DNA from: Kordia aestuariivivens | GTDB taxonomy: Bacteria; Bacteroidota; Bacteroidia; Flavobacteriales; Flavobacteriaceae | Reading direction: 5' to 3' | NCBI RefSeq assembly: GCF_014397005.1 | Contig: NZ_JACGWS010000015.1 | Location: 62,001 to 126,000, forward strand | Length of the DNA stretch: 64,000 nt | Shown: piece by piece, positions 36,015 through 58,422 of the stretch | Position numbering within the stretch: the first letter of the stretch is position 1 | How the letters are laid out: each line of letters starts with the position of its first letter | The notes under the pieces: model-generated | The model's database searches: none | The model's input: the letters and a program-made list of their open reading frames with translations, nothing else | What the model was told of the DNA's origin: nothing | Position numbers and translations under genes: made by a program

Positions 36015-36047
36015 TAGACGAAATGCAATTTCCTTTAGTCCAATTAA
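36015..36047 (+). promoter_or_regulatory. candidate LytTR-type operator 1 (21-bp direct repeat)
   Basis: TAGACGAAATGC at 36015 and TAGTCCAATTAA at 36036, starts 21 bases apart. A weaker third copy fits at 35994 (TACTCAAAA). The site is about 90 bases upstream of the receiver-GT2 gene (minus) and about 175 bases upstream of the divergent membrane-protein operon (plus). Confidence 0.5.
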
Positions 36048-36106
36048 AAATTACACCGTTTATCTTTACAATAATGAAATTACATGATGATGAGTTGTTT
36101 TAATAG

Positions 36107-36185
36107 CGTCATTCTGAACTTGATTCAGAATCCCATTAAGCTGATTTTAATTATTATGAGAAACCGAATCAAGTTCGGTTTGACG
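36107..36185. repeat. inverted pair of GTCA-headed palindromes
   Basis: The left unit is CGTCA-TTCTGAActtgaTTCAGAA; the right unit is AACCGAAtcaagTTCGGTT-TGACG. The outer stems TTC/GAA and AACC/GGTT differ between units but each stays complementary. Confidence 0.82.
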
Positions 36186-36222
36186 AGATTTTATTAAAAA
36201 GTGAATGCATCATATATAAAAC

Positions 36223-39200
36223 ATGAAAGAGACAACAAACAAACTACTACTATTGGCACTACTTCTCGGAGTTGTGTTTCATGGTGCGTCTATCTTTTTT
36301 ACGTTGGAAACTACCTATGATGCGTTAATCCACTTATTCTTTGCCGATCATTATGCAAACAGTTGGTTTGAACCTTGGAATTATAAATGGTACACAGGAT
36401 TTACGGTAATGAGTTATCCGCCGTTAGTACATCAATCTATTGGTGCGTTATCGTTAATTGGCGGTTTAAAATTTGGACTTTTTACGGTGGCAATCATTGC
36501 GGTGATTCTATTCATTACTGGTGTGTATCGGTTCTCTTTGCTCATGACAGGAAACAAAAGAGTCGCTGGTTATGCGGCAATTTTGGCGGTTTTCTCGTCT
36601 TCATTTGTAGAAACCTTGCATATTTTTGGACAATTGCCAAGTATTGTAGGAATTTCTGTGTTGATGCATGCCTTACCCGAAATTTATTTGTGGTTAAAAA
36701 CAGGAAAGTATAAATACCTTTTTACGTCGCTTTCGCTGATTGCAGTTACGGTTACCTCACATCATGTAACACCAATTTTTGGGATGATCTTTTTCATATT
36801 TCCGTTAATCGGGATGGTGCTAATGGACGCTTCTCGCGAAGAAGTAAACAGTACAAAAGAAGTAACGTTTATAGTTTTTTGGAAGCAATTTTTAAAGCTT
36901 TTCAAGCGAATTATTAGTTTCGGAATGTTGTCACTCGTGATTATTGTCGGATGTATCTTACCCTATTGGATCAATTCCAAAAACAATCCAATTACGCAAG
37001 TACCAATTCCGCACGGTTCACGCGATCACTTTATAGAAATTTCGTCTTCAGGATTGGTTTTCTTTCTAATTCCTTGGGGAATTTTACTCTTTCTATTACC
37101 ATATATATTTTACAGATATTACAGTAAACGCTATCTATTTTTTGGCTTGTCAATTACCATATTGTTCGTTTTAGGAACAGGCGGAACAACGCCAATTCCA
37201 CGAATGTTATTGGGTGAAACGGCTTTCAATATCTTAACCTTGGACAGATTCACGTTGTGGGCTTCCATTATGTCATTACCGCTTTTTGGCGAATTTGTAT
37301 ATCGTTTTGTTGAAGGTGATTTAAAAGCATTGCTACAAGAAAAATTTGGCGCTATCTATCACAGAATCATTGGTGGCGGATTAGCAGGTTTATTTGTCTT
37401 TATGACCATTTTCACGATGAGTTTAGGCTATTTCAGACCATCGCAACCGAAAAAAATAAACATGTTGCCTATTGTGAATTTCCTCAATCAAGATCAACAC
37501 GATCAATGGAGATATCTAACACTTGGTTTTGGCGATCAAATGGCTTGGTTATCAGCACAAACAAACGCAATGACAGTTGACGGAAACTATCATTCTGCAC
37601 GACGTTTGCCAGAATTGACAACACGACCAATAGAACGTTTAGAAAACTCAAAATTCAAAGGCGTTGCCGGAATCGGATCCTTACAACAATTCTTAACAAC
37701 GCCCGAAAAATACAATCTAAAATATATATTTTCCAACGATAAATTTTACGATCCAATTCTCTATTTCTGCGGTTGGCAACGCTTGCCACAATTGGAAAAT
37801 GGAATCATGGTTTGGGAACGACTCAACGTTGCCCCACTTTCATCAATTTTACCGAAAGATGAGGTTTCAACCTGGCAAAAAATGTTGTGGGGAATTATGC
37901 CGTTTCTCACGTTGATATTGGCGTTTATACTCAACATTCAACCCATCTTTCTGAGATACATTCAGCGAAAGCGAACTGATTCACAAGCATATCTAAATTT
38001 CAAAATTGAATATGGAAATTTCTCAAGAAAACTTGTAAAAGTGAATCATATTTGGGCAATAATTCTCACGTTGATTCTTTGTTTTGGAACCTATCAATTC
38101 TACCTAAAAAACGATGCACAACGTTCGCCCGAAAATGTCGTAAAGGCGTATTATGATGCACTCGATTTTAAACAATTTGAAAAAGCATACAGTTTCATCA
38201 ATCCAGAAAACAAAAGTACAATTGCGCAATACATGTTGGAGATTTCTTCTACGGACGGATTGTTGAGTTCGTATGCAAAACTAGACGCATTGGAAACTGA
38301 AATCATTACGGAAACGGATCGTTTGGTTACGCTGAAAGTCACCTCAAAATGGATTACACCATTAGAAAAAATTCAAAAAGTAGACTATAAAACGGTTCTA
38401 AAACACAACGGAAAATGGTTTTTACAACCAGAAACTGTTGAAGCCGATTTGCCGCCCGATCAATTAGTTGAGAACAATGAAACTTCGTATTTCAATCACG
38501 GACGAAGACGTATTACAACCGAACAAACCTATCATGAAGATGTTTTAAAACAACCAGTTTTGGAGATTATTTCCGCAAAATTGGTCAATCATAATGGACA
38601 TTACGCAATTGTTGGTGAAGTTCAAAACATTGACAATGTACCCGCGGATGTGGTTTTAAAAGGAACCTTGTACAACGATAAAAATGTGGAATTGGCAACG
38701 TACAACGCCAAATATCATATCAAGCACAAATTGATGCCGAAAGAAGTGACGTCGTTCCGAATTAACTTTGAAGGAATTGCATGGTCAAACACGCAAGATT
38801 CCATTCCGAAAACCTTCAATCCAGACGAATTTACACCTGCGCATTTTGAAGATGAACCGACAAAGTTCAATTTGCAAGCAGCAGGAAATGTTTCTGGCTT
38901 GGATTTGTACAAAAATATCGTGTTGAATGATGTAGAAATTGATCAGAAAACCATCAAAGGAAACTTGTTCAATAGCGGTTTGCAAGAAATTACGGTTCCA
39001 CAATTATTGATCACGTATTATGATGAAAACAAAGAATTGTTGTGGGTAGATCATTTGTTTTTGGACAGCGGAATTCGTCAGCAACGAAAACAGGCTTTTA
39101 GCTATAAATTATCAGGAAATGATGCCATAAAAATTATCAGTACGGACATGGAAAACTGTTACGTAAATGGTTTGCCAAACGCGGACATTTCTGCGAAAAT

Positions 39201-42025: not shown

Positions 42026-42040
42026 TATTACATAATAAAT

Positions 42041-42100
42041 TATATCTGAATGCATATAATTCAGTGTATTTATCTAATTTTATATCTAAATACATATAAT
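42041..42100 (+). promoter_or_regulatory. direct repeats overlapping the hipB-like start, probable autoregulatory operator
   Basis: TATATCTGAATGCATATAAT at 42041 and TATATCTAAATACATATAAT at 42081 match at 18 of 20 positions, 40 bases apart; the second overlaps the ATG at 42099. Such repeats are the expected binding sites of the HTH protein. Confidence 0.65.
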
Positions 42101-42476: not shown

Positions 42477-42491
42477 ATTTAATGATGTAAG

Positions 42492-43697
42492 CTAAACAAC
42501 CAAATCACCAACTCGCTCACTTTTTTTTTCAATAATCGCTTCAAATTCTTCCAAATACATATCCGTAATGCGTTCCATAGGAAATGCAGTAGCAGCTTTG
42601 TAATTGGCCTTTTCGAGCGAAATTCGGTAGCTTTCGTTGGTTACAATTGCTTTAATAGCATTTGCCAAACTATCTACGCTATTAGGTTCAAAGAATTCAC
42701 CTCTATAACCTTCATCTTTTACTAACAAGGCTAAGTCACCTAAATTGGGCATGACAACTGCTTTTCCGTAACTTCCGGCTTGGTGCAACACACCAGAACT
42801 TCCCGTAGTTGACGTATATGGAAATACCACAACCGCACTTTCGTTGAACAGTGGCGCAACGTCAGCTTCTTCCACATATCCTGTAAATGTCAATTGTGAA
42901 ACATGCTTGTATTTTTCTTGAACATTTGCCAAATACCCTGGTACATTTGGATTGTCGGTTCCTGCAATGACGATTTCTAAATCTAAACCAGAAATCTTGC
43001 GAACTTTCTCCACAGCTTCAATCATGGATTCCACTTTTTTGTAGGTTCCAAATTTTCCAAACGTCATTATTTTTAATGGACTTCTTGGCAATTTGAATGA
43101 AGGAGTTGAGGCAACTTCAAACGTTCCGTGTGGAATCATAATTATGTTGTCTGCTAAGTATTTTGCCTCTAAGACATAAGCATATTTTTGCATGGTTACG
43201 GCAACTTTGTCTGCATGTAATAATAAGCGTGTTAAGTTTGTTCCAATATAATTATAGACTTTTTGTACTAATTTATTTGAGGTGAATCCGGCACTTTCTA
43301 AATCAACTTCTTCTAAAATATTATGTAATAACACAATGTTTGGGATTCCTTTCATTCGACAAACTAATGGAAGCATTAAACCCAAAGCCGCCGCAATTTT
43401 TTTATCGCCAAATTTCATGAATTGCAAGTTGAACAAAACGGCATCTGGTTTTGAACGATTAATCGCTTTTGTTACCGAAATTAAGTTGGTGTAGCTGTTA
43501 AACTTCCAACATTCCTTAACGGTAATTTTGCAACCGTCTTCTGTAAAGTTGAGATCTTTTGCGGCTGGAGTTTTGTCCGTTAACAAAATGATTTCTGTAA
43601 CATTTTCCTTCTGGCGAAAGCTTTTCACTAAGTGATATGCGTATTCATTTAACGTTACCTTACTTGGTGGATAGGCTGTTACGATTGCTAGTTTCAT
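42492..43697 (-). CDS. family 4 glycosyltransferase
   Basis: The 401-residue GT-B enzyme has the N-terminal acceptor domain (LAIVTAYPPSKVTLNEYAYHL ... VLLHNILEEVDLESAGF) and the C-terminal donor domain with PLKIMTFGKFGTYKKVESMI, DLEIVIAGTDNPN and the EX7E-region equivalent SSGVLHQAGSYGKAVVMPNLG. It probably transfers a sugar from a nucleotide donor in the cytoplasm during repeat-unit assembly. It is monocistronic with a 21-bp-spaced operator candidate 63-100 bases upstream. Confidence 0.93.
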   Translation of the reverse strand: MKLAIVTAYPPSKVTLNEYAYHLVKSFRQKENVTEIILLTDKTPAAKDLNFTEDGCKITVKECWKFNSYTNLISVTKAINRSKPDAVLFNLQFMKFGDKKIAAALGLMLPLVCRMKGIPNIVLLHNILEEVDLESAGFTSNKLVQKVYNYIGTNLTRLLLHADKVAVTMQKYAYVLEAKYLADNIIMIPHGTFEVASTPSFKLPRSPLKIMTFGKFGTYKKVESMIEAVEKVRKISGLDLEIVIAGTDNPNVPGYLANVQEKYKHVSQLTFTGYVEEADVAPLFNESAVVVFPYTSTTGSSGVLHQAGSYGKAVVMPNLGDLALLVKDEGYRGEFFEPNSVDSLANAIKAIVTNESYRISLEKANYKAATAFPMERITDMYLEEFEAIIEKKSERVGDLVV

Positions 43698-43759
43698 AAT
43701 GTGTTCTATTTAATTATAGTACAAATGTGCATTTTCAACACTTGAAAAATAGACGACTT

Positions 43760-43799
43760 GTGTCGAAATGCGAATAGGGTTCGATGAAATGCGAGTAGG
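43760..43799 (+). promoter_or_regulatory. candidate LytTR-type operator 2 (21-bp direct repeat)
   Basis: GAAATGCGAATAGG at 43765 and GAAATGCGAGTAGG at 43786 match at 13 of 14 positions with starts 21 bases apart. They are 68 bases upstream of the GT4 start codon. Confidence 0.6.
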
Positions 43800-43993
43800 T
43801 TTAGATTTCTAATTTGAATGATTTATGTTACTTTCATTTTAGTTCGTATCATTTCTATTTTAAGTTAAAAGAACTCATGAATCTTCGATTTCTTTGCTTA
43901 CCCACATTTCGGCTCCGCTCAATGTTCAACCACGAAAAAACTTTTCTATACTGCGGAAAAGGAGAAGAAAGGAATAAAATTTAGAGTAGTTTA

Positions 43994-44102: not shown

Positions 44103-45356
44103 CTAAGAGCGAAGCGATCTAAATTTATTCTCAAAGAAGAAAAAAGACAATTGCACAACCAATAACAAAACCATCGCAATGCTTTGAACATGGACAACTT
44201 GTGCTAAACTTTCGTGAAAGAAAACAACCAATACAATTTGAAGCATTCCAAAAATGCCTGAAAGTACCACAGGAATGTATTTGTCTAATGATAAATAGTA
44301 ATAGGCGAAGATGTTGGAAATTGCGAAAATGCCTGTTGCCAATGCGTATTTCCATAATAGTGGCGCGATTTCGAGATAGCTTTCGCCAAATAAAACGTGT
44401 ACGATTTGTTCTGGAAATAGGACGCAAGCGAAAATGATTGTCGCTGCAATTATAGCAATGTAACCAACATATTTTAGCAATACAGAAACGGTTTCTTTTC
44501 CTTCTTTTTGCAATTGTACTACGGTTGGTAACAACAACATAACAAACATCCACGCGATGAAATACACAACACGTCCAATTAATGCCAACGAAGCATACAA
44601 ACCTGCATCATACGATTCAAAATAGTGTTTTACGAGTAAAATATCGCTGTTGTTAATGATGATTTGTGTCAGTTCGTAAAAAGCAGTGATGATGAAAAAA
44701 TTTCGGACGAGTTTACTTTGTGTCGCGTTTAATACGTTTACTTTTTTTAGGGAAATATGTTTGAATTTAAAAGGCATTAAACCAAATAAGAAAGACGCTA
44801 AAATCCCTAAGGAAATAATCAAAGATGATTCAATGTTAAGAAAATATAATAACGTCAACGTGATTAACAATCGACTGATCATTTCTGCTTGATACGTCAC
44901 AGAAAGCGAAACCAATTGCTGCTTTCCTTGAAAAATGCCTCTGTTGACACTCATGATGAAATAAAGTGGAATTCCGAATCCGAACGCGACAAACATACTT
45001 GACGATGAGGTTTTGAAAAATGTTTGCAATTCGGTTGCGAAGACAACAATCAACAATCCTAAAATGATTCCTGTACTAATAGATTTTTTATACATATTCG
45101 CAGCAAAAGCTTTGAAAACAGAAGTTTCAAACACTACGGAGAATTTTGCCGTTACAAGTTGAAACGTCATCGCTACAAATGATAATACCAATAAAAAAGT
45201 AATCAATACGGCAGCATCTGCAAATTTTTCGGGTCCTAAAAAACGTCCTAAAAGTAAATTGTAGACATAATTTCCACCATTCACCAATACGCCACTTATC
45301 ATGAAAATATGTGTTGTAGTAAGGATCCTTTTTATTTTTTTTGTGAGTGCGATCAT
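44103..45356 (-). CDS. Wzx-like polysaccharide flippase
   Basis: A 417-residue polytopic protein with about 12 hydrophobic helices and the MOP/polysaccharide-export signature at the start (THIFMISGVLVNGGNYVYNLLLGRFLGPEKFADAAVL). Wzx-type flippases move lipid-linked repeat units across the inner membrane. The extreme C-terminus (RSLRS and the stop) is encoded inside an AGCGAAGCG repeat unit, so the original end may have been overwritten. It lies 50 bases downstream of the STAS gene, the spacer containing five TGAATAC heptamers, and the two are likely co-transcribed. Confidence 0.9.
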   Translation of the reverse strand: MIALTKKIKRILTTTHIFMISGVLVNGGNYVYNLLLGRFLGPEKFADAAVLITFLLVLSFVAMTFQLVTAKFSVVFETSVFKAFAANMYKKSISTGIILGLLIVVFATELQTFFKTSSSSMFVAFGFGIPLYFIMSVNRGIFQGKQQLVSLSVTYQAEMISRLLITLTLLYFLNIESSLIISLGILASFLFGLMPFKFKHISLKKVNVLNATQSKLVRNFFIITAFYELTQIIINNSDILLVKHYFESYDAGLYASLALIGRVVYFIAWMFVMLLLPTVVQLQKEGKETVSVLLKYVGYIAIIAATIIFACVLFPEQIVHVLFGESYLEIAPLLWKYALATGIFAISNIFAYYYLSLDKYIPVVLSGIFGMLQIVLVVFFHESLAQVVHVQSIAMVLLLVVQLSFFFFENKFRSLRS

Positions 45357-45406: not shown

Positions 45407-45685
45407 TTACGCTACTTGCGAACAATTAAAATCTTGGTAAATGTTTTTGCAACCATTTCCGATGACGGAAAACATTTTTTGATTTTGCACTGCAATTGCG
45501 ATTAATGATTTGATTCCTTCCAAGCCAGCTTCATCAATTTCTGTGATTCCGTCAATATTGATGACTATATTATGATGTAGTTCAATGATTTCCTCGAAGT
45601 GAATGATAAACGATTGTTTCGTAGTAGTATTTAGTTGTCCATGTACTAAAAAAGTTCCGTTTTGTGCTGTGATTTGTAAAGCCAT
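45407..45685 (-). CDS. STAS-domain protein without phosphorylatable serine
   Basis: The 92 residues form one STAS domain: GTFLVHGQLNT, VINIDGITEIDEAGLEGIKSL, and a terminal helix. SpoIIAA-type anti-anti-sigma factors have D-S-S-G with the second Ser phosphorylated; here residues 51-54 are D-E-A-G, so that control is lost. It may be a constitutive partner of an unknown anti-sigma or act in the polysaccharide machinery. No anti-sigma kinase is nearby. It precedes the flippase and has an operator candidate 68 bases upstream. Confidence 0.85.
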   Translation of the reverse strand: MALQITAQNGTFLVHGQLNTTTKQSFIIHFEEIIELHHNIVINIDGITEIDEAGLEGIKSLIAIAVQNQKMFSVIGNGCKNIYQDFNCSQVA

Positions 45686-45752
45686 AATTGAAAGGTTTTG
45701 AGGTTAATTCTGCTGCAAATATCTCAGAATCACTACCAAATTAGGCGTGTTG

Positions 45753-45785
45753 TCGGCGAGATTCAATTTACTTGCGATGAATGAA
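45753..45785 (+). promoter_or_regulatory. candidate LytTR-type operator 3 (21-bp direct repeat, weaker)
   Basis: TCGGCGAGATTC at 45753 and GCGATGAATGAA at 45774, 21 bases apart. It is upstream of the STAS gene (minus) and of the divergent TPR gene. The match to the other sites is weaker. Confidence 0.35.
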
Positions 45786-45827
45786 GCGTCGTTGGTGCTT
45801 ACCTTACAATTGTCTAAAACCAAGATC

Positions 45828-47958: not shown

Positions 47959-48414
47959 ATGGAATATCTTCACGACATACAAAAGCCTTCAAAAAAGGAG
48001 CAGCTAGCCGCAATGGAGTCCTATAATGCGTTGGCTGCTAGATTGGCAGAATTACATTCAGAAAATCCAGAAATAGAAATTGAAGAAACTTCTGAAAAAA
48101 TTAAAATTCCTTTAAAAGCACTCAAACTTCTAGCAAAAATTCTTCAAGCAACAAGTCAAGGAAAACCTATTTCTGTAGTTCCTATTGCCACAGAGATGAC
48201 TACACAAGCGGCCGCAGAACTGTTAGGCTGTTCACGTCCGCATATAGTAAAACTCCTAGAAAGTGGCGAAATTCCATTTACAAAAGTTGGAAGACATCGC
48301 AGAGTAAAATATGAAGATATAGCACGCTATAAGAAAGCTAAAAAAGAAGAGCAAGAGCAATTGCTTATTCAAATGATGAAGTCTGATGAAGAATTAGGTT
48401 TGTATGATTCATAG
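47959..48414 (+). CDS. excisionase-type HTH antitoxin
   Basis: Residues about 78-130 form an excisionase/MerR-like winged helix (MTTQAAAELLGCSRPHIVKL then LESGEIPFTKVGRHRRVKYE). The N-terminal part is helical and probably binds the toxin. The next gene, a PIN protein, overlaps this one by 11 bases. That arrangement, antitoxin first with translational overlap, is typical for PIN-type II toxin-antitoxin pairs with an Xis-like antitoxin. Confidence 0.88.
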   Translation: MEYLHDIQKPSKKEQLAAMESYNALAARLAELHSENPEIEIEETSEKIKIPLKALKLLAKILQATSQGKPISVVPIATEMTTQAAAELLGCSRPHIVKLLESGEIPFTKVGRHRRVKYEDIARYKKAKKEEQEQLLIQMMKSDEELGLYDS

Positions 48415-48967
48415 TGTTCGTTTTACGGCGGTTTTAGATACCAATATTATTTATCCTATTGAAATTAGAGATTTACTTTTTTGGTTTGCACATTATGATT
48501 TGTTTACTGTAAAGTGGAGTAAACATATTTTTGATGAATGGGAAAGTGTCATGAAACGAAAAGATATTAGTGAAGCTGAAATTAAAAAACGCACTAATTT
48601 TGCCAGCTTAGCTTTTCCCGACGCATTAGTCACAAATTATGAATCACTCATAGAAAGTCTGTCATTGCCAGATGAAAAAGATTGTCACGTATTAGCAGCA
48701 GCAATTAAAACAAACGCAAATGTAATTGTCACACATAATCTCAAAGATTTTCCAAAGCCATATTTGGCTACTTTTGGTTTGGTTGCTAAATCGGCGGATG
48801 ATTTTATCGCGGATATTATTGACTTAAATCATAGCAAAGCCATAGAAGCTTTTCGGAAATTAGTATTAAATAGAAGAAATCCTGATTTAGACGAATTTGA
48901 AGTTTTAGATAATCTACGAAAAAATGGATTGAATAATTCTGCAGACTATTTACATTCGTTGATTTAA
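48404..48967 (+). CDS. PIN-domain toxin
   Basis: A 187-residue PIN ribonuclease. The acidic active-site residues are visible: D12 in TAVLDTNIIYP, E in FDEWESVMKR, and D in LPDEKDCHVLAAAIKT; a further Asp region follows in VIVTHNLKDFP. PIN toxins cleave RNA and stop translation until inhibited by the antitoxin. The C-terminal extension after residue 135 is helical and longer than in VapC. It overlaps its antitoxin. Confidence 0.9.
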   Translation: MIHSVRFTAVLDTNIIYPIEIRDLLFWFAHYDLFTVKWSKHIFDEWESVMKRKDISEAEIKKRTNFASLAFPDALVTNYESLIESLSLPDEKDCHVLAAAIKTNANVIVTHNLKDFPKPYLATFGLVAKSADDFIADIIDLNHSKAIEAFRKLVLNRRNPDLDEFEVLDNLRKNGLNNSADYLHSLI

Positions 48968-49136: not shown

Positions 49137-51734
49137 CTACTCTACAATGAGTTTTATAATTTTATACGTCTGTTTTGAACCAATAATTTTACAGAAATAC
49201 AATCCGGAACGCAAGTTTTGTCGGTTTAGGGGGATTTTGTTCGAGCCATTTTCAGTCGTAATTTGCGCCTTATAAACTATTTTGCCTACTTGGTCGTACA
49301 TAACAAACTGTACGTTCTCGGATTGATTTGCTGTAAAGTGAATATTTGTGTGTGTTGTCATCGGATTTGGAATCGCCGCAACATGTTGTGTTTCGTTTTC
49401 AAAACCAGGAACACTTAAAGTACTTTCATTGGAGAAATATACCTGTTTTAAATTCATGGTTTTGGTGACCATTTGTCCATTTTCAGAAACCATCGTGAAA
49501 ACTATTGTAACAACATCGTTTAGCTCAATATTTGAACCAGTTGTTGAAGTAAAACTTGACAATGGAATATTGAATTCTTGTTCGGTTTCTGTTAAGCTGA
49601 TGGTCGTTTTGTATTGTTCCGCCCAATCAGAAATGCTTTGTTTTACAAGGGTAATTTCTAAATTTCCTGTTCCGCTTGCGATGAGATTAAAGGTATCATA
49701 ACCAGAAATATCTACCGCTTTAAATCGGGGTGTTAAAGCTCTGTAAGCGGCAACATACGTACTTGTATTTGCTCTTAAAGCGACGTTTCTTTCTATTGGA
49801 AATACGTCCGTATCAAAACTGTTTGTATTTTGAGAAACTGTATAATTACTTACCGTAGTATTGACTTCCGAATCGTCAATTCCCCAAGGTCCATCAGACA
49901 TGAATAAATCATCTGGTGTTGCAATTCCGTCGCCAATTCTGAATCCGATATCGAATAAGTTTCCTGTCGGTACTTGTAAGTTGGTAATGTAATTTCCGTT
50001 TAAGTCTAATGTTGAAGTTGTATTGTTAAATTCGCTCGTTTCTGTCGTTCTAAAACCTGCGTCAAAAGCGACATTTCCTGTTGCATTTGTGTTTACTATT
50101 TGTAAATCTAATGCGCCATTTGTATAGTTTCCTTTTCTAACAAAAACTGTTGGCGGCGTTGAAAGGGTATAGTCTGAAATTGGTTTTTCAATATTTAATA
50201 AATTCAATACTTCTTCTCCCAAAAGATATAAATCATCTAAAGAGTTTGACCAAATTTGAAAGTTGTAAAAAGTAACATCGCTTTCATATCGATCTAAATT
50301 CCAGTGACTTTCCACCGCGAAATTTACTTCGTTATTGATAACTTTCGCCGAAAAGCTTAAGACAAATTCAACTGTATTATCTGTATTTCTGATTAATGAT
50401 TTTATAAATGCTTGTCCATTAATGTCTATTGTTGACACAGAGATCAATTCCGCGCCAAGCAAACGATCGCAAATATATTTAGTATGTTCGTACACGCCAT
50501 TTTCTGTTTTTAAAGCTAAAATAGATGCGACTGCCGTATTATTTTTGATATAATCTACTGAATAAATTTCGGTTGCATTGGTAATGTTTATTAAATCGGA
50601 AGGTGTAGATTCAATCGTTTCATCTTCGTTGATAACGGCTAACGGAATAAAATCTTGTAGCACAAAACCATTCGCAGTATTTTCTGCATAAAATTGCGAT
50701 CTTGTCACTCTTGGAGCATTTCTTTTGTCAAACTTAAAACTTGTTTTTGCTCTGTTGTAGTTTCGTTTGTTGATTGCATCCGACAATCTTCTATTACTTT
50801 CCAAACCGCCTTCATTAGCGCCAGAAGTTTCAGGATTTATGACATCACATTCACCATAACCAGAACATGAAGGATCTTGGCAATCAATTAGTCCGTCGCC
50901 ATCATCGTCAATTCCGTTATCACAAATTTCTTGCAAAACTGGTGCTGTTGGACAACGCGCGCCGTCATTACTTGCGCTTGAAGGTCCAAAAGCAAATAGA
51001 TTAGAATCTATGGCAATTGTTCCATCTAAATCTTGTACACGTTGAATGACATAAATAGTTCCTGTTTGGTTTGCAGATACGTAAAAACGTCCTGAATTAT
51101 CGAAATAAACAGCGCCATACGTATAGTTTAAACCTGATAGAATAGGAACTTCGCCAAGCGATTGTACAACACTTGTTACAGGATCAATTCGATATAAAAT
51201 ATTTGTACCTTTTTCAACCGCGTATAAATTATTGTCAACCGCATTAAAAGCCCAATCGTGAATACTGAGGTTTTGTGATAAATTTTCGGTTGCTACATGT
51301 TGTGTGTATGTTGTAGAAGTTGGATCAACATCTATTTTATAATACGTTGTTCCACCACCTTTTAAATAGTAAATTCCAGCGGCACTTACATCACCAACAT
51401 ATCTATTTGATGTTGGCAATTCGTCTATATAAAAAGAAGTTGTTTGAAAATCCTGTCCAATACGAATAATGGTTTTTTCAGGTGTACTCAACGATCCCCA
51501 AATGAAACCATCTGCAGGATTGTATGCTGCTGCATTAATGCTTCCGGGAGTAACATCTTCGGCAATTAAATACGAGTTTCCAGAAGCTAAATCAATGGAA
51601 TAGACATCATTATATTGAAATAAGTACGCGTCTTGCACACAATTGAACGGATCATTTTGTGCCGTAAGTGAAAGACTTGATATTGCTATAAATAGTGCAA
51701 GAAGTTGATATCGTAAAGTAATTATTCTTTTCAT
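49137..51734 (-). CDS. type IX secreted protein, beta-propeller-like, type A sorting domain
   Basis: A signal peptide (QLLALFIAISSLSLTAQ) starts this 865-residue protein. Residues about 30-255 look like a beta-propeller (repeated SIDLASGNSYLI, YKIDVDPTSTTY, YRIDPVTSVVQSLG patterns). Then comes a calcium-type DNGIDDDGDGLIDCQDPSC motif, a central region with FxIxSNSLDDLYLLG, a carbohydrate-binding-like segment (about 640-780) and a type A T9SS tail (AIPNPMTTHTNIHF ... LRSGLYFCKIIGSKQTYKIIKLIVE). It is probably a surface or secreted polymer-binding protein. It lies downstream of the LytTR gene and has an operator candidate 76 bases upstream. Confidence 0.9.
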   Translation of the reverse strand: MKRIITLRYQLLALFIAISSLSLTAQNDPFNCVQDAYLFQYNDVYSIDLASGNSYLIAEDVTPGSINAAAYNPADGFIWGSLSTPEKTIIRIGQDFQTTSFYIDELPTSNRYVGDVSAAGIYYLKGGGTTYYKIDVDPTSTTYTQHVATENLSQNLSIHDWAFNAVDNNLYAVEKGTNILYRIDPVTSVVQSLGEVPILSGLNYTYGAVYFDNSGRFYVSANQTGTIYVIQRVQDLDGTIAIDSNLFAFGPSSASNDGARCPTAPVLQEICDNGIDDDGDGLIDCQDPSCSGYGECDVINPETSGANEGGLESNRRLSDAINKRNYNRAKTSFKFDKRNAPRVTRSQFYAENTANGFVLQDFIPLAVINEDETIESTPSDLINITNATEIYSVDYIKNNTAVASILALKTENGVYEHTKYICDRLLGAELISVSTIDINGQAFIKSLIRNTDNTVEFVLSFSAKVINNEVNFAVESHWNLDRYESDVTFYNFQIWSNSLDDLYLLGEEVLNLLNIEKPISDYTLSTPPTVFVRKGNYTNGALDLQIVNTNATGNVAFDAGFRTTETSEFNNTTSTLDLNGNYITNLQVPTGNLFDIGFRIGDGIATPDDLFMSDGPWGIDDSEVNTTVSNYTVSQNTNSFDTDVFPIERNVALRANTSTYVAAYRALTPRFKAVDISGYDTFNLIASGTGNLEITLVKQSISDWAEQYKTTISLTETEQEFNIPLSSFTSTTGSNIELNDVVTIVFTMVSENGQMVTKTMNLKQVYFSNESTLSVPGFENETQHVAAIPNPMTTHTNIHFTANQSENVQFVMYDQVGKIVYKAQITTENGSNKIPLNRQNLRSGLYFCKIIGSKQTYKIIKLIVE

Positions 51735-51809
51735 GATTCTAATTTATACTACAAAACTAGCTTCATAAAAATGATAAAAACACGATCGTCGGCGCGATCA
51801 TTTTAAGTG

Positions 51810-51842
51810 TAGACGAAATGCAATTTGCTTTAGATTAGCTTT
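51810..51842 (+). promoter_or_regulatory. candidate LytTR-type operator 4
   Basis: TAGACGAAATGC at 51810, identical to boxes at 36015 and 58390, with a weaker TAGATTAGCTTT at 51831 (21 bases on). It is 76 bases upstream of the type IX protein gene. Confidence 0.5.
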
Positions 51843-51916
51843 TAGATATTTTGATTTTTGGACGCACTTTGCTTTTAGAATGTTGGACATTTTATGCGAA
51901 AGGATTATCAAAAAAG

Positions 51917-51978: not shown

Positions 51979-52689
51979 TTACAAAAGATCCAAACGCTTC
52001 ATTAATTCAGGACGTTTTGAACGACTTACCGGAATAACATCTTTTTTGATTAAAACGCTATTATCTTCAATATCAACGATTTTCTTTAGATTGATAATGT
52101 ACGAACGGTGAATTTTTAAGAACAACGATTCAGGGAGTTTTTCTTCGATTTTCTTTAAGGTAGAATGTACAGTGTAATTTTTATCTTCTGTTTTGATGTG
52201 AATGTAATCGCCTTTGGCTTCTACTAAATAAATGCTTGGAATGTCAATTTTTATCAAACGACGATCAATATTAATATAAAAGTCATTTTCATAGTCTGAA
52301 TCATCATTGATCGTTTCCGAAGTTTTGCTTTCTATTGCTTGATATTTTTTGGCTTTTTGAACTGCCATTTTAAAACGATCAGTAGCAACAGGTTTTAATA
52401 AATAATCTACAATACAGTCATACTGAAATGCTTCAATAGCAAACTTTGGATCAGAAGTCGTTAGGACAATACTTGGCGGATTTTTTAAGGTTTTTACAAA
52501 GTCAAATCCTGTAAAGTCCGGCATGTGAATGTCTAAAAAGATGAGGTCAACTTCGTTTTCATTCAAATATTTAATGGCTTGTAATGCATTAGGAAATTCG
52601 GCTAATACATGCAATGAATCTATTTCATCACAAAGCGTTTTAATAATTGTTCTCGCCAACTTTTCATCATCAATAATAATACAGTTCAT
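51979..52689 (-). CDS. LytTR-family response regulator
   Basis: A receiver domain (residues 1-120; D7/D8, phosphoacceptor D53 in LIFLDIHMPDFTG, K at LLKPV) followed by a LytTR DNA-binding domain (about 140-235: SIYLVEAKGDYIHIKTEDKN, FLKIHRSYIINLKKI, VIPVSRSKRPEL). LytTR proteins bind pairs of direct repeats with about 21-base spacing. It is the only DNA-binding output in this signalling operon, so it is the likely end of the phosphorelay and the best candidate reader of the TAGACGAAATGC boxes. The gene follows the Hpt gene by 94 bases. Confidence 0.93.
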   Translation of the reverse strand: MNCIIIDDEKLARTIIKTLCDEIDSLHVLAEFPNALQAIKYLNENEVDLIFLDIHMPDFTGFDFVKTLKNPPSIVLTTSDPKFAIEAFQYDCIVDYLLKPVATDRFKMAVQKAKKYQAIESKTSETINDDSDYENDFYINIDRRLIKIDIPSIYLVEAKGDYIHIKTEDKNYTVHSTLKKIEEKLPESLFLKIHRSYIINLKKIVDIEDNSVLIKKDVIPVSRSKRPELMKRLDLL

Positions 52690-52783
52690 CTGTTTATTTT
52701 TATTTAATTAATTCGGTCAGATAGAATTTGCATATAAACATATTGGTTGCCAACAACAAATAATTATAGCTCATTTCATACCA

Positions 52784-53101
52784 TTAAATAGTTTTTATAT
52801 ACGCTGTAATTGTGGTTAAAATTTGCTCGAAATCTTCAGCGCCATCTCTATTTTTTTCACGGAGATTGTGCTCATACGTATTTGCTAATTCATAACTTTT
52901 TTCAAGTCCAAAAATACTAATTTTGTGCTTAAGCCTGTGTACATTTTCCTCTATTTTTTTGTAATCTTTTTTTTCTAAACTATCGTAATAATCCTGTTTT
53001 TCTTCAGGAAACTCCGTTTTGATGACGTCGATTAGTGTTGCTCTAATCTTTTGATCGCCTCTCGCTAATTGTTCTATGTAGGTTAAATTTGGGTACTCCA
53101 T
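52784..53101 (-). CDS. Hpt-domain phosphotransfer protein
   Basis: A 105-residue helical protein with the Hpt signature ENVHRLKHKISIFGLEKSYEL; H55 is the predicted phosphorylated residue. It would move phosphate between kinase/receiver partners and the LytTR regulator. The ATG at 53101 (MEYPNLTYIE) is used; a longer frame would overlap the upstream kinase and is not needed. It lies 14 bases after the kinase stop codon. Confidence 0.85.
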   Translation of the reverse strand: MEYPNLTYIEQLARGDQKIRATLIDVIKTEFPEEKQDYYDSLEKKDYKKIEENVHRLKHKISIFGLEKSYELANTYEHNLREKNRDGAEDFEQILTTITAYIKTI

Positions 53102-53115
53102 ATTTTTATTCCTAG

Positions 53116-54165
53116 TTACTTTTTCAAGGTAAAATAAAAGGTTGTTCCTTCTGTTGGCTTGGATTCTATCCAAATAACACCTTCATACAGATCCATGATT
53201 TTTTTGACGATTGAAAGTCCAATACCCGAAGATTTATAGTCGTTTTCTAGTTTTTGAAATGCCATAAATACTTTTTCAAAGTATTTTTCTTCAATTCCTT
53301 TGCCATTATCTTTTACATAAAACTCCCAAAAATCGCTTGCATCGGTATATCCAATTGTAATTTCCCCTTGCGGTTTGTCGTTGAATTTGATAGCATTGTT
53401 GATAAGGTTTCGAAATAATTCTTCCAATCGAAAATGATCGCCCGTAACGACAGGTAATTTTTTTGGAATTGAAATGTTTATATGTTCAGGAATTTCAGTA
53501 GTACTCACTACTTTTTGAACAACGAAATGTGTGTCTACTTTGTAGAAACCTTTTTCAGCACTACCAATGGTAGAATATTTTAAAATTCCTTTGACCAACG
53601 TGTCCATTTTTTCAACATTACCACGAATGAGTTGAATGGTGTTTTTTCCGTCTTCGTCTAAAATTTCTTCATAGTCACTTTGCAACCAATATGTTAATGC
53701 GTCAATGCTTTGTAAAGGCGATTGTAAATCGTGTGAAACTAAGTGTGTATAATTATTGAGTTCTTGATTTTGACGTTCTAAATTTGTCAATAATTTGTCA
53801 CGTTGCTGATTGATTTGAAGAATTTCTTTGGTTTGATTGTCTATCAAATCGACTAAAGTTAACGAATCTAACGCTATATTTTCTTGCTGTTTTGAGTTTG
53901 TTAACTCATACGTTTTTAAGGTATTAATAACATTTTTCAACTTTTCAATGACTTCTTTTTGCGAATCTAATTCCTTTTTTAGTTTTTCGTTTACTAAAAA
54001 TAATTCTTCTGAACTAATCGCAGTTGCGCGTTGCAACATTATAAATTGTTCATCAGATGTGTTGTACGAGCGATTTACCGCATCTAAAAAGCGTTCCAGT
54101 TCAGGATTTTGCTTTAAATCATCGCTGAGGTATTTTCGTAATTGTCTTTTTAGTAGTGAATTCAT
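53116..54165 (-). CDS. sensor histidine kinase next to FIST gene (NahK-like position)
   Basis: A 349-residue soluble kinase. An N-terminal helical segment (LKRQLRKYLSDDLKQNPELE) and a long coiled coil lead to the H box YTHLVSHDLQSPLQ (H145), then N box NLINNAIKF, G1 VKDNGKGIE and G2 SSGIGLSIVKKI. There is no membrane segment and no own sensor domain, so the signal should come from a partner, most simply the FIST protein whose stop codon directly abuts this ATG. In proteobacteria such FIST-kinase pairs are NosP-NahK nitric oxide sensors. Confidence 0.92.
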   Translation of the reverse strand: MNSLLKRQLRKYLSDDLKQNPELERFLDAVNRSYNTSDEQFIMLQRATAISSEELFLVNEKLKKELDSQKEVIEKLKNVINTLKTYELTNSKQQENIALDSLTLVDLIDNQTKEILQINQQRDKLLTNLERQNQELNNYTHLVSHDLQSPLQSIDALTYWLQSDYEEILDEDGKNTIQLIRGNVEKMDTLVKGILKYSTIGSAEKGFYKVDTHFVVQKVVSTTEIPEHINISIPKKLPVVTGDHFRLEELFRNLINNAIKFNDKPQGEITIGYTDASDFWEFYVKDNGKGIEEKYFEKVFMAFQKLENDYKSSGIGLSIVKKIMDLYEGVIWIESKPTEGTTFYFTLKK

Positions 54166-55305
54166 CTATTCGCTAATTAGCGTAATTGTCATCGTTTGAT
54201 TGTGTAATTGGCAGTTTGTCTCACCTTGAAAAGGTGCTATTTCTCCATAAGAATATAATCCGCAAATCGTGGTATTTTCACCAACGACTTCAATGATTTC
54301 TTCTATTTCTTCTTCCACACGCTGATCGAGCACTAACTTTCGTCCAATACAACTTACTAAAAGTGCCAATTCGGGTGCTGTATTTCGTGATTTTAATGCT
54401 TGAATTGCCGCATTTTCAGATGCTTCTACAATACTATCAACATTTGTCATCATCAATTGTACGCGCGAATTTTCAAGAATATCACCAGCTAAAATCATGG
54501 AGTTTTCTTCTTCATTTATGTTTAAAATGGTTCGAACTATCGATTGCTTATCGTTTGTCGATTTCACTTTAAGTGGATATAATAATGCCGCGCCAGGCAA
54601 TTCTTTTGATTTTTCGCCTAAATATTTTTTGTATAAATCCAGCGCAGGTTGATGGTCTAGTTCGTACAATACATTCGCTTTTGATTTGGTCACAATGCGT
54701 TCGGGTCCAAAAGGTGTCCAACCGCCGTTGATAGAAAAACTGATGTCTAAGGTTTCCCCGTATAAACCAATCGCGACAATTTCGCCTGCTTTTGGCAATT
54801 CGTTATACGAAGCAATTGTTTTTTCAAATCGTGCAGCATCGCCACACAAAGCGCCCGTAATGAGCAAATTGTTTTCCGTTGCCGAATTCATGCCTTGGGT
54901 AAGCTGACTTCCATTGCTAAAACTTCCTTCCGAAACAATAAAGATATGTTTTAAACCTTCATTAGAAAATTGTTCAATGAGATTTTTGCCAGTTTTGTAA
55001 CTGTCAATTTCTGCATTGTTTTCTAATACATTCGCCGTTTTGATTTCAAATCGACTTCGCTCAAACTCAATTGCAGTAATGCTAATACTTTCGTCATCTA
55101 CATAGTGTGACGTAATATCGCCAGCCGTAGAACCAAATACTAAATGTCCGTCGTTAAAAAGTGTTTTGATTTCGTTATAAATCGTTTCACTTTCCAACAA
55201 ATACCTGTTTCCAAAAACGAAGACCAACGGATTTTGTAGCGGAATGTTCTCGCTAATATATTCCCAATCGGACGTTTTTGTTTTTTTAAGTTGAACAGTT
55301 TTCAT
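54166..55305 (-). CDS. FIST-domain sensor (possible NosP-type NO sensor)
   Basis: Both FIST_N (about 20-205: PLVFVFGNRYLLESE, LVFGSTAGDITSHYVDD) and FIST_C (about 215-370: ELDHQPALDLYKKYLG, CIGRKLVLDQRVEEE, TTICGLYSYGEIAPF) are complete in this 379-residue protein. FIST proteins are ligand sensors; the NosP branch binds haem and NO and regulates the adjacent histidine kinase. Haem binding cannot be proven from the sequence. The gene sits 2 bases after the PAS kinase and directly before a kinase. Alternative: a small-molecule sensor unrelated to NO. Confidence 0.88.
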   Translation of the reverse strand: MKTVQLKKTKTSDWEYISENIPLQNPLVFVFGNRYLLESETIYNEIKTLFNDGHLVFGSTAGDITSHYVDDESISITAIEFERSRFEIKTANVLENNAEIDSYKTGKNLIEQFSNEGLKHIFIVSEGSFSNGSQLTQGMNSATENNLLITGALCGDAARFEKTIASYNELPKAGEIVAIGLYGETLDISFSINGGWTPFGPERIVTKSKANVLYELDHQPALDLYKKYLGEKSKELPGAALLYPLKVKSTNDKQSIVRTILNINEEENSMILAGDILENSRVQLMMTNVDSIVEASENAAIQALKSRNTAPELALLVSCIGRKLVLDQRVEEEIEEIIEVVGENTTICGLYSYGEIAPFQGETNCQLHNQTMTITLISE

Positions 55306-55307
55306 AC

Positions 55308-57287
55308 TTATTTTTTTATTGTAAAGAAAAATGTGGTGCCTTTTCCTACTTCACTTTCTAACCAAATATTTCCTTCGTATAAGTTAACAATTTTTTTCAC
55401 GATAGAAAGCCCAATACCAGTAGATTCTTTACTTTTATTTAAAGAATGGAATATTTTGAAAATACGATCGTGGAACTTTTTTTCAATTCCGATTCCGTTG
55501 TCTTTTACAGAAAATTGATAGAAAGATGATTCTTCTACAAAATCAATTGTTACAATTCCGTTGTCTTTGTTGCTAAATTTAATAGCGTTGCTTAGTAGGT
55601 TTTGAAAAAGTTGTTGAAACTTTGTCGGATCGCCTTTAAGCACCGGTAATTTTTTTGATACGTTGATAGAAACATGTTCAGGAACGAATAATAATTTATT
55701 CAAATCTTGCATTGTTTGGTTTAAATCTACTTCTTGCTGTTCGTTGATTTCTGAACCTGCACTAGAATATTCTAAAATGTTAGAAATCAATCGTTCCATT
55801 GTTTCCAGTGTTTCTTCAACAAGGTTGAAGTTTTGCAAGGTTATAGCGTCTAATTTGCCTTCATTGTCTGTTTTTATCCAAGAAATTAATGCATCAATGC
55901 TTCGCAATGGAGTTTTTAAATCGTGCGAAACCACATGTGCATATTCATACAATTCGTTGTTACTATTTTCGAGTTCTTTTAGGATTTTTTCTTTTTGTTT
56001 TTCAAGCGATTTTAGCTCGGTGATATCTAAATGGATTCCAATAGAACCAATAACTTCACCTTGCAAATTGTAGTTTGGCGCGCCACTAATCAGCCAATCT
56101 CTAGCTTCTCCACTTTTGTTACGAGCTTTGATTTCGTAGGAGTTGGATTTGCCAGCCAATCGTTTTTTATTTTCTTCTACAATAACATTTTCATCTTGTT
56201 CAATTGGGAACACTTTGCCACCAACTTTACCAATGAGTTCTTCTTCGGTGTAGCCCGACATTTCACTGAAACTTTGATTTAACATCAAAATTTGATCGTC
56301 ATTGTCAACTTCTACCAAACCTAGATTCATATTAGCAATAATGCTACTATATTTTTCTTTTTGTGCTTCTAAACTTTTTCTATAGGTTCTTTTTAAGGTA
56401 ACATCAGAAAACGTCCATAAGTATCCTTTCGATTTCTCGCCTGTTTTGATTGGAATATAATTGCGTTCCAATATTTTTCCATCAATCATTTCCAATTCGT
56501 CACCAATCACTAGTTCTTTCGCATCATCAATTGCGCGCATGCGTTTCATAAAGGCTTCAGGATCTTTAAAAAGCACTTTGTTTTGTTCGGAAGCTTCTTT
56601 ACAATTCATTCCGACTAATTCTGTTGGTTGGATATCAATATTGAAAAGGTCACAAAATTTCTTATTCGTCAAAACGATTTTACGATTTTCATCTTCCAAG
56701 ACAATTCCGCTATCCAAATTGAGAATTAATGTAGCCAATCTATTTTCAGATTCAATCAGTTTTTCATCAAATGCTTTTTGATCGGTAATATCTCTAATAA
56801 TTCCTTGTGCGGCAATTGCTTTTTTGTTTTTATCGTACACTAAACTCGCGTTGATTTGAACCCAACGCACTTCTTTAGTCTTACTTATTATGCGTGCTGT
56901 GTAGTTGGTAAATGTTCCTTTTTTAATCAATTCGCTGAACGATTCAAATGCATAAGCAGCATCTTCTGGGTATATTAGTGAGGTAGCATTTAAAGCTTCT
57001 TTTGTAATATCGTAGCCGAAAAGATCAGTAGCGGCATCATTCATTTTCAATACATTTCCACCTAAATCCATCACCATATATGCATCTAGAATATTTTCAA
57101 AAACACCTGCTAATTGTGATGATTTTTCGTTGACCGAATCTTCTAACTTTGCATTGATAACTTTTAATTCTTCAGACAACACATACAACTCTCTGGATTT
57201 GTCTTCCAGAATTTTTTCTGCGGCTCTTCTTGCTGCTTTCTCTCTTTTGAGCGCACGTTGTAATATGTCGATCTGTTCTTGACTCAT
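55308..57287 (-). CDS. multi-PAS histidine kinase coupled to H-NOX
   Basis: The 659-residue soluble kinase begins with a coiled coil (LQRALKREKAARRAAEKILE) that is typical of kinases adjacent to H-NOX genes in this phylum. Three PAS modules follow (about 60-175, 185-300, 310-425). H box YAHVVSHDLKTPLRSID (about 450), N box LLSNAIKFS, G1 VKDNGIGIE and G2 STGIGLSIVKKI follow. Its ATG overlaps the H-NOX stop (TAATG), making it the probable direct partner of H-NOX, equivalent to HnoK. Confidence 0.93.
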   Translation of the reverse strand: MSQEQIDILQRALKREKAARRAAEKILEDKSRELYVLSEELKVINAKLEDSVNEKSSQLAGVFENILDAYMVMDLGGNVLKMNDAATDLFGYDITKEALNATSLIYPEDAAYAFESFSELIKKGTFTNYTARIISKTKEVRWVQINASLVYDKNKKAIAAQGIIRDITDQKAFDEKLIESENRLATLILNLDSGIVLEDENRKIVLTNKKFCDLFNIDIQPTELVGMNCKEASEQNKVLFKDPEAFMKRMRAIDDAKELVIGDELEMIDGKILERNYIPIKTGEKSKGYLWTFSDVTLKRTYRKSLEAQKEKYSSIIANMNLGLVEVDNDDQILMLNQSFSEMSGYTEEELIGKVGGKVFPIEQDENVIVEENKKRLAGKSNSYEIKARNKSGEARDWLISGAPNYNLQGEVIGSIGIHLDITELKSLEKQKEKILKELENSNNELYEYAHVVSHDLKTPLRSIDALISWIKTDNEGKLDAITLQNFNLVEETLETMERLISNILEYSSAGSEINEQQEVDLNQTMQDLNKLLFVPEHVSINVSKKLPVLKGDPTKFQQLFQNLLSNAIKFSNKDNGIVTIDFVEESSFYQFSVKDNGIGIEKKFHDRIFKIFHSLNKSKESTGIGLSIVKKIVNLYEGNIWLESEVGKGTTFFFTIKK

Positions 57288-57826
57288 TAGTTTTTTTGAA
57301 TGCTGAACTTAACTTCCGTTCCGTCTTCTTTAATTTTTTCAAGAATAATTTCGGCGGAACTGTTAAAATGTTCGAAAGTTTTGTTCATTAAGCCCAATCC
57401 AAAATGATGCATGGCTCTGCTCGATTTATAGATCAAAACCAGCGAATTTTCTGTTTTTTCTTCAACTATAAATGTTGGTAACTCTGCATCAGGATATATT
57501 TTTCGGACTTCTACATGAATGTGATTTTCAATAGAAGCAATCATTTCTATCGGATCTTTGTACGTTGCTAACAATCCTGGATAACTACTTTCAATAACGC
57601 TAAAAAAGTGTTCGGCGTATGTGAGTAATAAATCATCAATAGAAATATCTGTACTTTCGCTTAAGTGTTGTAATAACTGCAACATTTCAGAAAAGCGATA
57701 CGTTCCAATAGATGTATACACACCTTCAGATTCCAATTCAGATTGCTCAATGATTTTATCCACCATTTCCAGACCAAATTTGTCTTCTACTAAGTCTAAA
57801 AATTCTGTAAAAATGATTCCTTTCAT
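57287..57826 (-). CDS. H-NOX haem nitric oxide sensor
   Basis: The 179 residues start MKGIIFTEFLDLVEDKFG. The proximal haem ligand is His104 in NHIHVEVRKIYPDAELP. The YxSxR haem-propionate motif is Y133-S135-R137 in YKSSRAMHHFG. Distal-pocket residues that hydrogen-bond O2 in O2-binding members (equivalents of Trp9 and Tyr140 of Thermoanaerobacter H-NOX) are Phe9 and Phe142 here, predicting NO-selective binding. It starts 65 bases after the receiver gene and overlaps the PAS kinase gene. Confidence 0.96.
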   Translation of the reverse strand: MKGIIFTEFLDLVEDKFGLEMVDKIIEQSELESEGVYTSIGTYRFSEMLQLLQHLSESTDISIDDLLLTYAEHFFSVIESSYPGLLATYKDPIEMIASIENHIHVEVRKIYPDAELPTFIVEEKTENSLVLIYKSSRAMHHFGLGLMNKTFEHFNSSAEIILEKIKEDGTEVKFSIQKN

Positions 57827-57891
57827 GTGTTTTTAGTATTTAGCAAGATTTTATCAGTTAGAGCGTGTTATGTAGAGTGCTTTCTTAAACG

Positions 57892-58305
57892 TTAGGCACT
57901 TTTTAATTCATTAATAGACCAATACGAAAGCGTAATTTCTATTTTAGAAACGTAATCTTCGTATTTTAAAGGTTTTAAGATGTACCCAGAAATTCCAATG
58001 CGGTAACATTCTAAAATATCTTTTTTATTATCTGATGTTGTTAAAATAATCGTAGGAATATGTCGTAAATCAGGATCATTTTTTAAAATCGATAAAAATT
58101 CGATCCCATTAATTTTGGGCATGTTTAAATCGAGTAAAATAATATTAGGAAGATTTTCTTTTGTTTCTAAAATTGCCAACGCTTCATCTGCATTTTTTGC
58201 TTCTGTAATTTCATGTTTTGCTTCCAACAAAGAAACCGTACGATTCATCTTCATGATTTCGATCATGTTGTCTTCGATTAACAATACTTTTAATGATTTC
58301 GGCAT
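57892..58305 (-). CDS. CheY-like single-domain response regulator
   Basis: A 137-residue receiver without output domain: D12 in LLIEDN, phosphoacceptor D59 in IILLDLNMPKING, T in IILTTSDNKKD, K in ILKPLKYED. It is first in the H-NOX operon. Without an output domain it may be a phosphate sink, a phosphorelay intermediate to the Hpt protein, or bind a target protein. An operator candidate is 85 bases upstream. Confidence 0.92.
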   Translation of the reverse strand: MPKSLKVLLIEDNMIEIMKMNRTVSLLEAKHEITEAKNADEALAILETKENLPNIILLDLNMPKINGIEFLSILKNDPDLRHIPTIILTTSDNKKDILECYRIGISGYILKPLKYEDYVSKIEITLSYWSINELKSA

Positions 58306-58389
58306 TTTTCTTATTTAAGCAATTATAACTGCAATTTTAGGGGAATAAAAACCAATAAAAGTTGAATGCAGTTTAACGAAGAATAAGTG

Positions 58390-58422
58390 TAGACGAAATG
58401 CAATAAAGTGTAGATGAGGTAT
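58390..58422 (+). promoter_or_regulatory. candidate LytTR-type operator 5 (21-bp direct repeat)
   Basis: TAGACGAAATGC at 58390 and TAGATGAGGTAT at 58411, both preceded by GTG, exactly 21 bases apart. It is upstream of the receiver/H-NOX operon, which ends with the LytTR gene, so it would give feedback control. Confidence 0.55.

Follow-up and report, generated by a model that had tools for sequence, protein, structure and literature searches.

A 21-bp lattice of candidate LytTR operators at an H-NOX and polysaccharide locus of Kordia aestuariivivens and other Flavobacteriaceae

Described systems and the locus in Kordia

Many of the studied pathways that start from H-NOX, the heme sensor of nitric oxide (NO), are described as ending in changes of cyclic di-GMP (c-di-GMP) (PMC8738867). 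The same source describes a phosphorelay (SypF) leading from H-NOX to exopolysaccharide (syp) transcription in Vibrio fischeri, and a transcriptional feedback loop, through HnoC, in the H-NOX signalling of Shewanella. LytTR regulators bind sites described as two repeats of 9-11 nt each, with 11-13 nt between them (PMC4847170). Here we analyse a stretch of 64,000 nucleotides from Kordia aestuariivivens (the window, on contig C7 of a 5.46-Mb assembly) in which the two appear to be connected. It contains a minus-strand operon with the gene order receiver, H-NOX, PAS-kinase, FIST, second kinase, Hpt and LytTR regulator. Downstream of the operon are genes for a secreted protein that combines DUF6923 and a type IX secretion system (T9SS) sorting domain, a TPR protein, a STAS-domain protein, a flippase and a GT4 glycosyltransferase, then a three-gene plus-strand block, and finally a receiver domain fused to a GT2 glycosyltransferase (receiver-GT2). 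Five promoters of the locus carry direct repeats with a 21-bp period. The most likely explanation is a dedicated, autoregulated LytTR regulon that joins an H-NOX/NosP-like phosphorelay to exopolysaccharide genes.

The locus resembles those of Shewanella and V. fischeri, as described in PMC8738867, in having H-NOX beside a kinase and a phosphorelay, and in its proposed feedback (compare HnoC) and control of exopolysaccharide transcription (compare syp). It is unlike them in its LytTR output, in having a FIST/NosP-like gene in the same operon, and in belonging to a genome without a GGDEF match (0 matches, against matches in 8 of 14 control genomes). Since there is no GGDEF match, NO is unlikely to act here via a canonical diguanylate cyclase, and the c-di-GMP route seems closed.

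The repeats also resemble known LytTR operators. Those of YpdB, AlgR, AgrA and CoxC/RcoM are likewise direct repeats about two helical turns apart, and the 21-bp step follows the LytTR rule of 9-11 nt repeats with 11-13 nt between. The sequence-only reading of the window had recognised this layout, and it agrees with the gap published in PMC4847170 and PMC11347149, as far as these sources describe it. The AlgR core CCGTTCGTC (PMC4064291) differs from the present core CCATTCGTC in one of nine letters, the YpdB site GGCATTTCAT (PMC4847170) contains GCATTTC of the present motif, and CoxC has three repeats, as do the present operators, the CoxC repeats being 18-21 bp apart (PMC11347149). The present operators are unlike known LytTR sites in forming a three-slot lattice of which different promoters use different neighbouring slots, in keeping a fixed step to the Bacteroidota -7 box, and in making up one dedicated regulon at one locus.

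A literature search, mostly without subscription papers, found nothing that joins H-NOX to a LytTR output; PMC6769237 mentions LytTR in the context of AgrA nitrosylation. Nothing was found on a LytTR regulon in Flavobacterium, and no binding-site model for a Bacteroidota LytTR subfamily was found among the matches listed. The locus supplies such a model. It also yields a precise operator, a promoter spacing and a list of targets, and offers a candidate route for NO control of polysaccharide without c-di-GMP that is conserved in many genera.

Proposed operator lattice and promoter spacing

The 12-mer TAGACGAAATGC occurs exactly at 36015, 51810 and 58390, with variants at 43760/43781 and 45753/45774, second copies 21 bases away, and one orientation common to all five sites, all as the sequence-only reading had reported. 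That reading had also placed the sites 68-90 bases upstream of minus-strand start codons; they are indeed upstream, at measured distances of 91, 63, 68, 76 and 85 bp. It had not noticed a third, degenerate half-site. The operator would then consist of up to three half-sites on one face of the helix, 21 bp apart, with the best half-sites falling in differing neighbouring slots from one promoter to the next. This lattice, together with a sigma-A -7 box at a fixed step from it, is newly described.

The five operators and their predicted -7 boxes are all on the minus strand. The operator of the receiver/H-NOX operon (58365..58422) has half-sites at 58407-58422 and 58386-58401 and a degenerate third at 58365-58380, in 21-bp phase. 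Its predicted -7 box TAAAATTG (58332..58339; one mismatch) lies 46 nt past the middle half-site, and there is a further one-mismatch box at step 58. Before the DUF6923/T9SS gene, the operator (51785..51842) has a strong half-site at 51806-51821 between weak ones at 51827-51842 and 51785-51800; the predicted box TAGTTTTG (51752..51759) is again 46 nt past the middle half-site, with a one-mismatch box also at step 59. The STAS-flippase operator (45749..45806) is degenerate, with usable half-sites at 45770-45785 and 45749-45764 and an unrecognisable first slot; the predicted box GATATTTG (45716..45723; one mismatch) lies 46 nt past the half-site at 45770-45785, and another one-mismatch box is found at step 26. 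The GT4 operator (43756..43813) consists of half-sites at 43798-43813 (weak), 43777-43792 and 43756-43771. Its predicted box CACATTTG (43722..43729; one mismatch) is 47 nt past the middle half-site, and a further one-mismatch box is at step 25. Finally, the receiver-GT2 operator (35990..36047) has half-sites at 36032-36047 (weak) and 36011-36026 and a degenerate third at 35990-36005, and its predicted box TACTTTTG (35956..35963) lies 47 nt past the middle half-site.

A -7 box is therefore present at 46 or 47 in all five window promoters, the middle or third half-site having been assigned by the analyst's choice for GT4 and STAS. Four of these promoters carry another one-mismatch box at a different step. 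A chance figure of 7e-9 for these promoters was judged too strong and set aside, as it used single-base shuffles and the chosen GT4 and STAS half-sites. The sites at 45753 (STAS) and 43760 (GT4) are weak in Kordia. They are credited because relatives carry good sites at the matching promoters (strong ones in the case of STAS), and because of the -7 spacing. Within Kordia, the core of the GT4 site is nevertheless kept. The GCATTTCGTCTA core of the receiver-GT2 operator is kept in all nine Kordia genomes that have the gene, even in K. algicida, where receiver-GT2 lies about 250 kb from the operon.

The sequence-only reading had made its interpretation depend on conservation in relatives that keep the locus, and the sites are conserved. 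Nine Kordia receiver promoters served to train a first matrix. Of 11 family genomes outside Kordia, with H-NOX identity down to 51%, nine have their top-scoring paired site of the whole stretch immediately ahead of the receiver gene; the two failures are G019 and G021. A family matrix was built from 14 training sites and applied to named Flavobacteriaceae loci, of which 80 were fetched and 79 counted (L154 was omitted, its contig ending before the receiver promoter); four of the 79 genomes were in the training set. The best 21-bp-paired site of the locus stands before the receiver gene in 73 of the 79, two of which (L201 and L213) score low, and the paired receiver site is among the best three of the locus in 77. 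It scores above 15 in 73 loci as well, a slightly different set from the 73 ranked first. The half-site consensus across the receiver sites is ACCATTCGTCKACACT.

Counts of spacing and of -7 boxes exclude six duplicate genomes, and those of -7 boxes also exclude the window. A spacing of 21 bp gives 199 matches, compared with 0-37 at 34 other spacings between 10 and 44, the largest number being at 42, which is twice 21. This control is only partly independent because the receiver sites were selected by 21-bp pairing. Thirty column-permuted matrices give 0-5 matches, with a mean of 0.97.

The third half-site of the receiver promoters is in the same phase as the others, with a conserved C at columns 9, 30 and 51. 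Among 73 receiver sites, 33 have a match to its core at +42 and nine at +43. According to PMC9723704, the sigma-A box of flavobacteria is TAnnTTTG and spans -12 to -5. Allowing at most one mismatch, this sequence is found 46 nt past the second half-site in 31 of 73 receiver promoters and at 47 nt in 11. When boxes at 25, 26, 46 or 47 are counted together, they follow 56 of 89 receiver matches and 75 of 83 others, among the latter all 29 T9SS matches. The counts drop to 0-6 when the positions are shifted by 3-15 bases; with shifts of 20 they are 12-40, as such a shift is almost one 21-bp step. With the sigma-A box spanning -12 to -5, the end of the operator falls immediately upstream of -33.

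In order to score promoters gene by gene, a matrix from receiver promoters alone was used and scores of at least 8 were counted. Such sites precede the receiver in 19 of 22 genomes, the T9SS gene in 8 of 10, GT4 in 6 of 19, receiver-GT2 in 5 of 18, STAS in 3 of 9 and the flippase in 2 of 18. None was found in 85 control promoters (those of LytTR, TPR and the 1026-aa, 504-aa and 196-aa proteins). A scan of all loci, which covered 4.4 million positions and included the window and six genomes in duplicate, gave 181 matches of more than 13 bits: 94 at receiver genes, 30 at T9SS, 10 at STAS, five at GT4, four each at flippase and receiver-GT2, one at FIST and 33 at others. The others include nucleotide-sugar dehydrogenase-like and chain-length-determinant-like proteins, judged by reading of their sequences. 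In L158, L191, L195, L197, L207 and L219, which belong to several genera, a small protein with an operator of its own is encoded some 500 bp ahead of the receiver gene. The open reading frames (ORFs) read for it code for 93-103 aa; no ORF was read in L219.

Whole genomes were searched with the paired family consensus at up to three mismatches, in 19 of 20 genomes (without L182). There are 29 matches, in 18 of the 19, against none for the reversed control, and 28 of the 29 are at this locus: 18 at the receiver promoter and ten more within about 30 kb. The ten distal matches stand before receiver-GT2 (six), GT4 (two), T9SS (one) and a small protein (one), each with a box at 46 or 47, and the sole match off the locus (L300, in G029) has no -7 box. 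The restriction to the locus in the species searched is what makes this look like a local, dedicated regulon, and the local regulon claimed by the sequence-only reading is supported by it. In the Kordia genome itself, the receiver promoter alone is strong enough to be detected by the paired consensus, and a bipartite search of that genome has the H-NOX promoter as its sole match at up to one mismatch. Of the five exact copies of the 12-mer in the genome, three are in the window and the other two inside predicted ORFs. With up to two mismatches the 12-mer has 13 matches in the window; 100 shuffles gave 6.17 on average and never more than 12. Two further paired sites were considered and rejected: L125 (score 12.3) is intergenic without a clear gene behind it on its strand and is probably a chance match, and L124 (score 14.7) lies inside a predicted ORF.

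The proposed regulator and rival explanations

The LytTR protein is the only one in the H-NOX operon in which Pfam scans find a DNA-binding domain, and the operator largely tracks with it across species. LytTR is visible in 72 of 79 loci and the operator exceeds 15 bits in 69 of these, with G002, L205 and G019 as exceptions. Two genomes separate the site from H-NOX. G015 has receiver, kinase, Hpt and LytTR without an H-NOX match; it has a 38.2-bit site at the receiver promoter, and T9SS, STAS and GT4 are preceded by weaker sites. G021 has an H-NOX operon without LytTR and without a site (-22.3), and its GT4 and receiver-GT2 likewise have none; its LytTR is elsewhere, beside a receiver gene that is preceded by a 25.8-bit site, and in a tree it clusters with the LytTRs of G011, G028 and G036. 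The site thus stays with LytTR when H-NOX is absent and stands before LytTR when it is relocated, so that the link to the operon's own regulator, already made in the sequence-only reading, is better grounded than before. In L215, which has no LytTR match genome-wide, there is no site at the locus. In L201 there is no LytTR beside the operon, the best match in the genome is 52% identical, and the site is degenerate. GT4 is found in 19 of 60 genomes (own included), all 19 of which have a LytTR match, against 25 of the 60 overall; a LytTR match without GT4 is seen in G002, G004, G019, G034, G038 and G059, the matches in G002 and G004 being of the paralogous kind discussed below. In a different family, G038 has adjacent genes for H-NOX, a kinase, a receiver and a LytTR of 42% identity, and shows no comparable site.

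On the basis of these comparisons, we hypothesise with considerable confidence that the repeats are operators for the LytTR regulator of the H-NOX operon (51979-52689). The operon and the neighbouring polysaccharide genes would then very probably be under the joint control of the regulator that the operon itself encodes. H-NOX and, in many species, the FIST/NosP-like protein would set the activity of the kinases, presumably with NO as the signal, and phosphate from the kinases would reach the LytTR regulator via Hpt. The regulator would directly occupy two or three half-sites beside -33 and activate its own operon, the secreted DUF6923 protein, STAS-flippase, GT4 and receiver-GT2, the products of which probably make and export an exopolysaccharide. 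Activation is proposed because of the operator position: the lattice ends 25-26 nt ahead of the sigma-A -7 box, just upstream of -33, as would be expected of an activator. A wider proposal seems to us evenly balanced between right and wrong. It is that across much of the Flavobacteriaceae H-NOX/NosP-like NO sensing is wired, via a phosphorelay and a dedicated LytTR activator on a three-slot 21-bp lattice, to exopolysaccharide transcription, and that this replaces c-di-GMP as the biofilm switch where GGDEF is absent, an absence tested only in the Kordia genome.

Several observations weigh against the operator hypothesis. The looser Kordia forms of the motif are not enriched in the genome: at one mismatch or fewer, the 12-mer matches 31 times and its reversed control 24 times; at three or fewer, the bipartite pattern matches 157 times and the control 135 times. 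The sequence-only reading would have given up its interpretation if the motif were equally frequent elsewhere; on this point the paired family consensus has all but one of its matches at the locus, and the loose forms show no enrichment. The GT4 (-0.9) and receiver-GT2 (-1.9) sites of Kordia are weak by the receiver-trained matrix, most GT4, receiver-GT2, STAS and flippase promoters score below 8, and a lone, unpaired good half-site stands before the 1026-aa control gene in G020 and G029. G002 keeps a perfect receiver operator despite the deletion, described below, in its Hpt and LytTR genes, Polaribacter glomeratus (L205) has LytTR and no operator, G019 has LytTR and a weak operator only (7.1), and L218 has one good half-site and no LytTR beside the operon, its LytTR being on another contig. 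Lastly, the Kordia genome has 38 LytTR matches, among them one close paralog that shares 80 of 101 residues of the DNA-binding domain. Cross-binding is therefore possible, and the exact protein that binds is not fixed.

It is improbable, but deserves attention, that the sites belong to this paralog (G000:C1:192735), alone or together with the LytTR of the operon, and that the signal comes from a different kinase. Besides the shared residues, this would account for another Kordia genome, G002, in which a large internal deletion has left the beginning of Hpt joined to the final part of LytTR; it retains the paralog and a perfect receiver operator (34.1), and its GT4 and receiver-GT2 were not found at E 1e-80. 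However, there is no strong site before the paralog's own operon in Kordia. G004, which has a match of the paralog's kind, has no H-NOX, GT4 or receiver-GT2 at the thresholds used, and its best site before a receiver scores -3.0. In G015 and G021, moreover, the site precedes the operon that carries the present LytTR. That the same regulator acts at the same sites as a repressor, and keeps its own operon and the polysaccharide genes silent until NO alters its phosphorylation, is less improbable, although we still consider it unlikely. HnoC is the repressor of the hno regulon of Shewanella (PMC8738867), and PMC11347149 describes repression by CoxC, a LytTR protein whose three direct repeats are spaced 18-21 bp apart. 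The CoxC operator overlaps -35, whereas 25-26 nt separate the present lattice from the -7 box and place it upstream of the core promoter, and PMC11347149 has most LytTR regulators binding upstream of -35 and activating.

Two explanations that need no LytTR protein were considered and rejected. The fixed step between the motif and the -7 box could suggest a promoter element, for example for an alternative sigma factor. This is very improbable: the box fits the sigma-A consensus given in PMC9723704, the element ends 25-47 nt further upstream, it is built in modular 21-bp steps, and 28 of 29 matches fall at one locus per genome. That the repeats are functionless copies of mobile or duplicated DNA, which the recurrence of exact 12-mers inside 22 kb might bring to mind, has a negligible probability. 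Only the half-sites and their phase are shared, while the flanks differ; orientation and distance to the start codon are alike, and the sites persist in distant genera. The idea is contradicted by the conservation, the per-gene scores and the -7 spacing.

Genes of the locus

The genes have been further analysed by profile searches, and those given here with a strand are all on the minus strand. The H-NOX operon begins with a single-domain receiver (REC; 57892..58305, PF00072), followed by H-NOX (57287..57826). This protein passes the HNOB domain test (PF07700, 138.2 bits against a cut-off of 25.5) and is predicted to bind NO at its heme; its best structure match, over residues 1-179, is 6bdd, the Kordia algicida H-NOX structure used in PMC7356049. 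The PAS-histidine kinase is at 55308..57287. The FIST-domain protein (54166..55305, PF08495/PF10442) is like the NosP/FIST sensors in having FIST N and C domains beside kinases. It differs from them in its score, since its sole NCBIfam match, to the NosP model NF041558, is 57.5 bits against an equivalog cut-off of 450, and by that test it is no NosP. A FIST/NosP-like gene is present in 42 of the 80 named loci, some of the others being cut by contig ends; this pattern would suit an optional input module. There follow a second histidine kinase (53116..54165), Hpt (52784..53173, PF01627), whose true start is probably downstream of the listed TTG start, and the LytTR response regulator (51979..52689), which is above the Pfam cut-offs for both PF00072 (68.4 bits) and PF04397 (80.7 bits). 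The paralogous receiver/PAS-kinase/Hpt/LytTR operon of Kordia, which is without H-NOX, is at about 3777-7458 of L267 (G000:C1:186000-200000).

Most of the polysaccharide block adjoins the operon in eight of the 11 H-NOX-bearing family genomes outside Kordia; this was not seen in the other three, G012, G019 and G034. The secreted protein (49137..51734) has a DUF6923 domain and a C-terminal T9SS sorting domain. The TPR outer-membrane protein (45747-47891) matches PrsT at 98.8 bits and PgaA second at 54.9 bits, below the PgaA cut-off of 366.65. It is thus weakly PgaA-like, as in Pga-type export, while the rest of the block (flippase, GT4, receiver-GT2) differs from such systems. The STAS-domain protein (45407..45685) scores 21.3 bits, slightly under the Pfam cut-off of 22.6, and is followed by the flippase (44103..45356, PF13440) and GT4 (42492..43697). 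An Rfam search of the window gave no match. Receiver-GT2 (34770..35924) combines PF00072 with PF00535, and the enzyme may itself be a target of phosphorylation, besides its transcriptional control. Within the block, two adjacent genes at 47959-48967 encode HTH_17 and PIN_3 proteins, an arrangement like that of a toxin-antitoxin pair.

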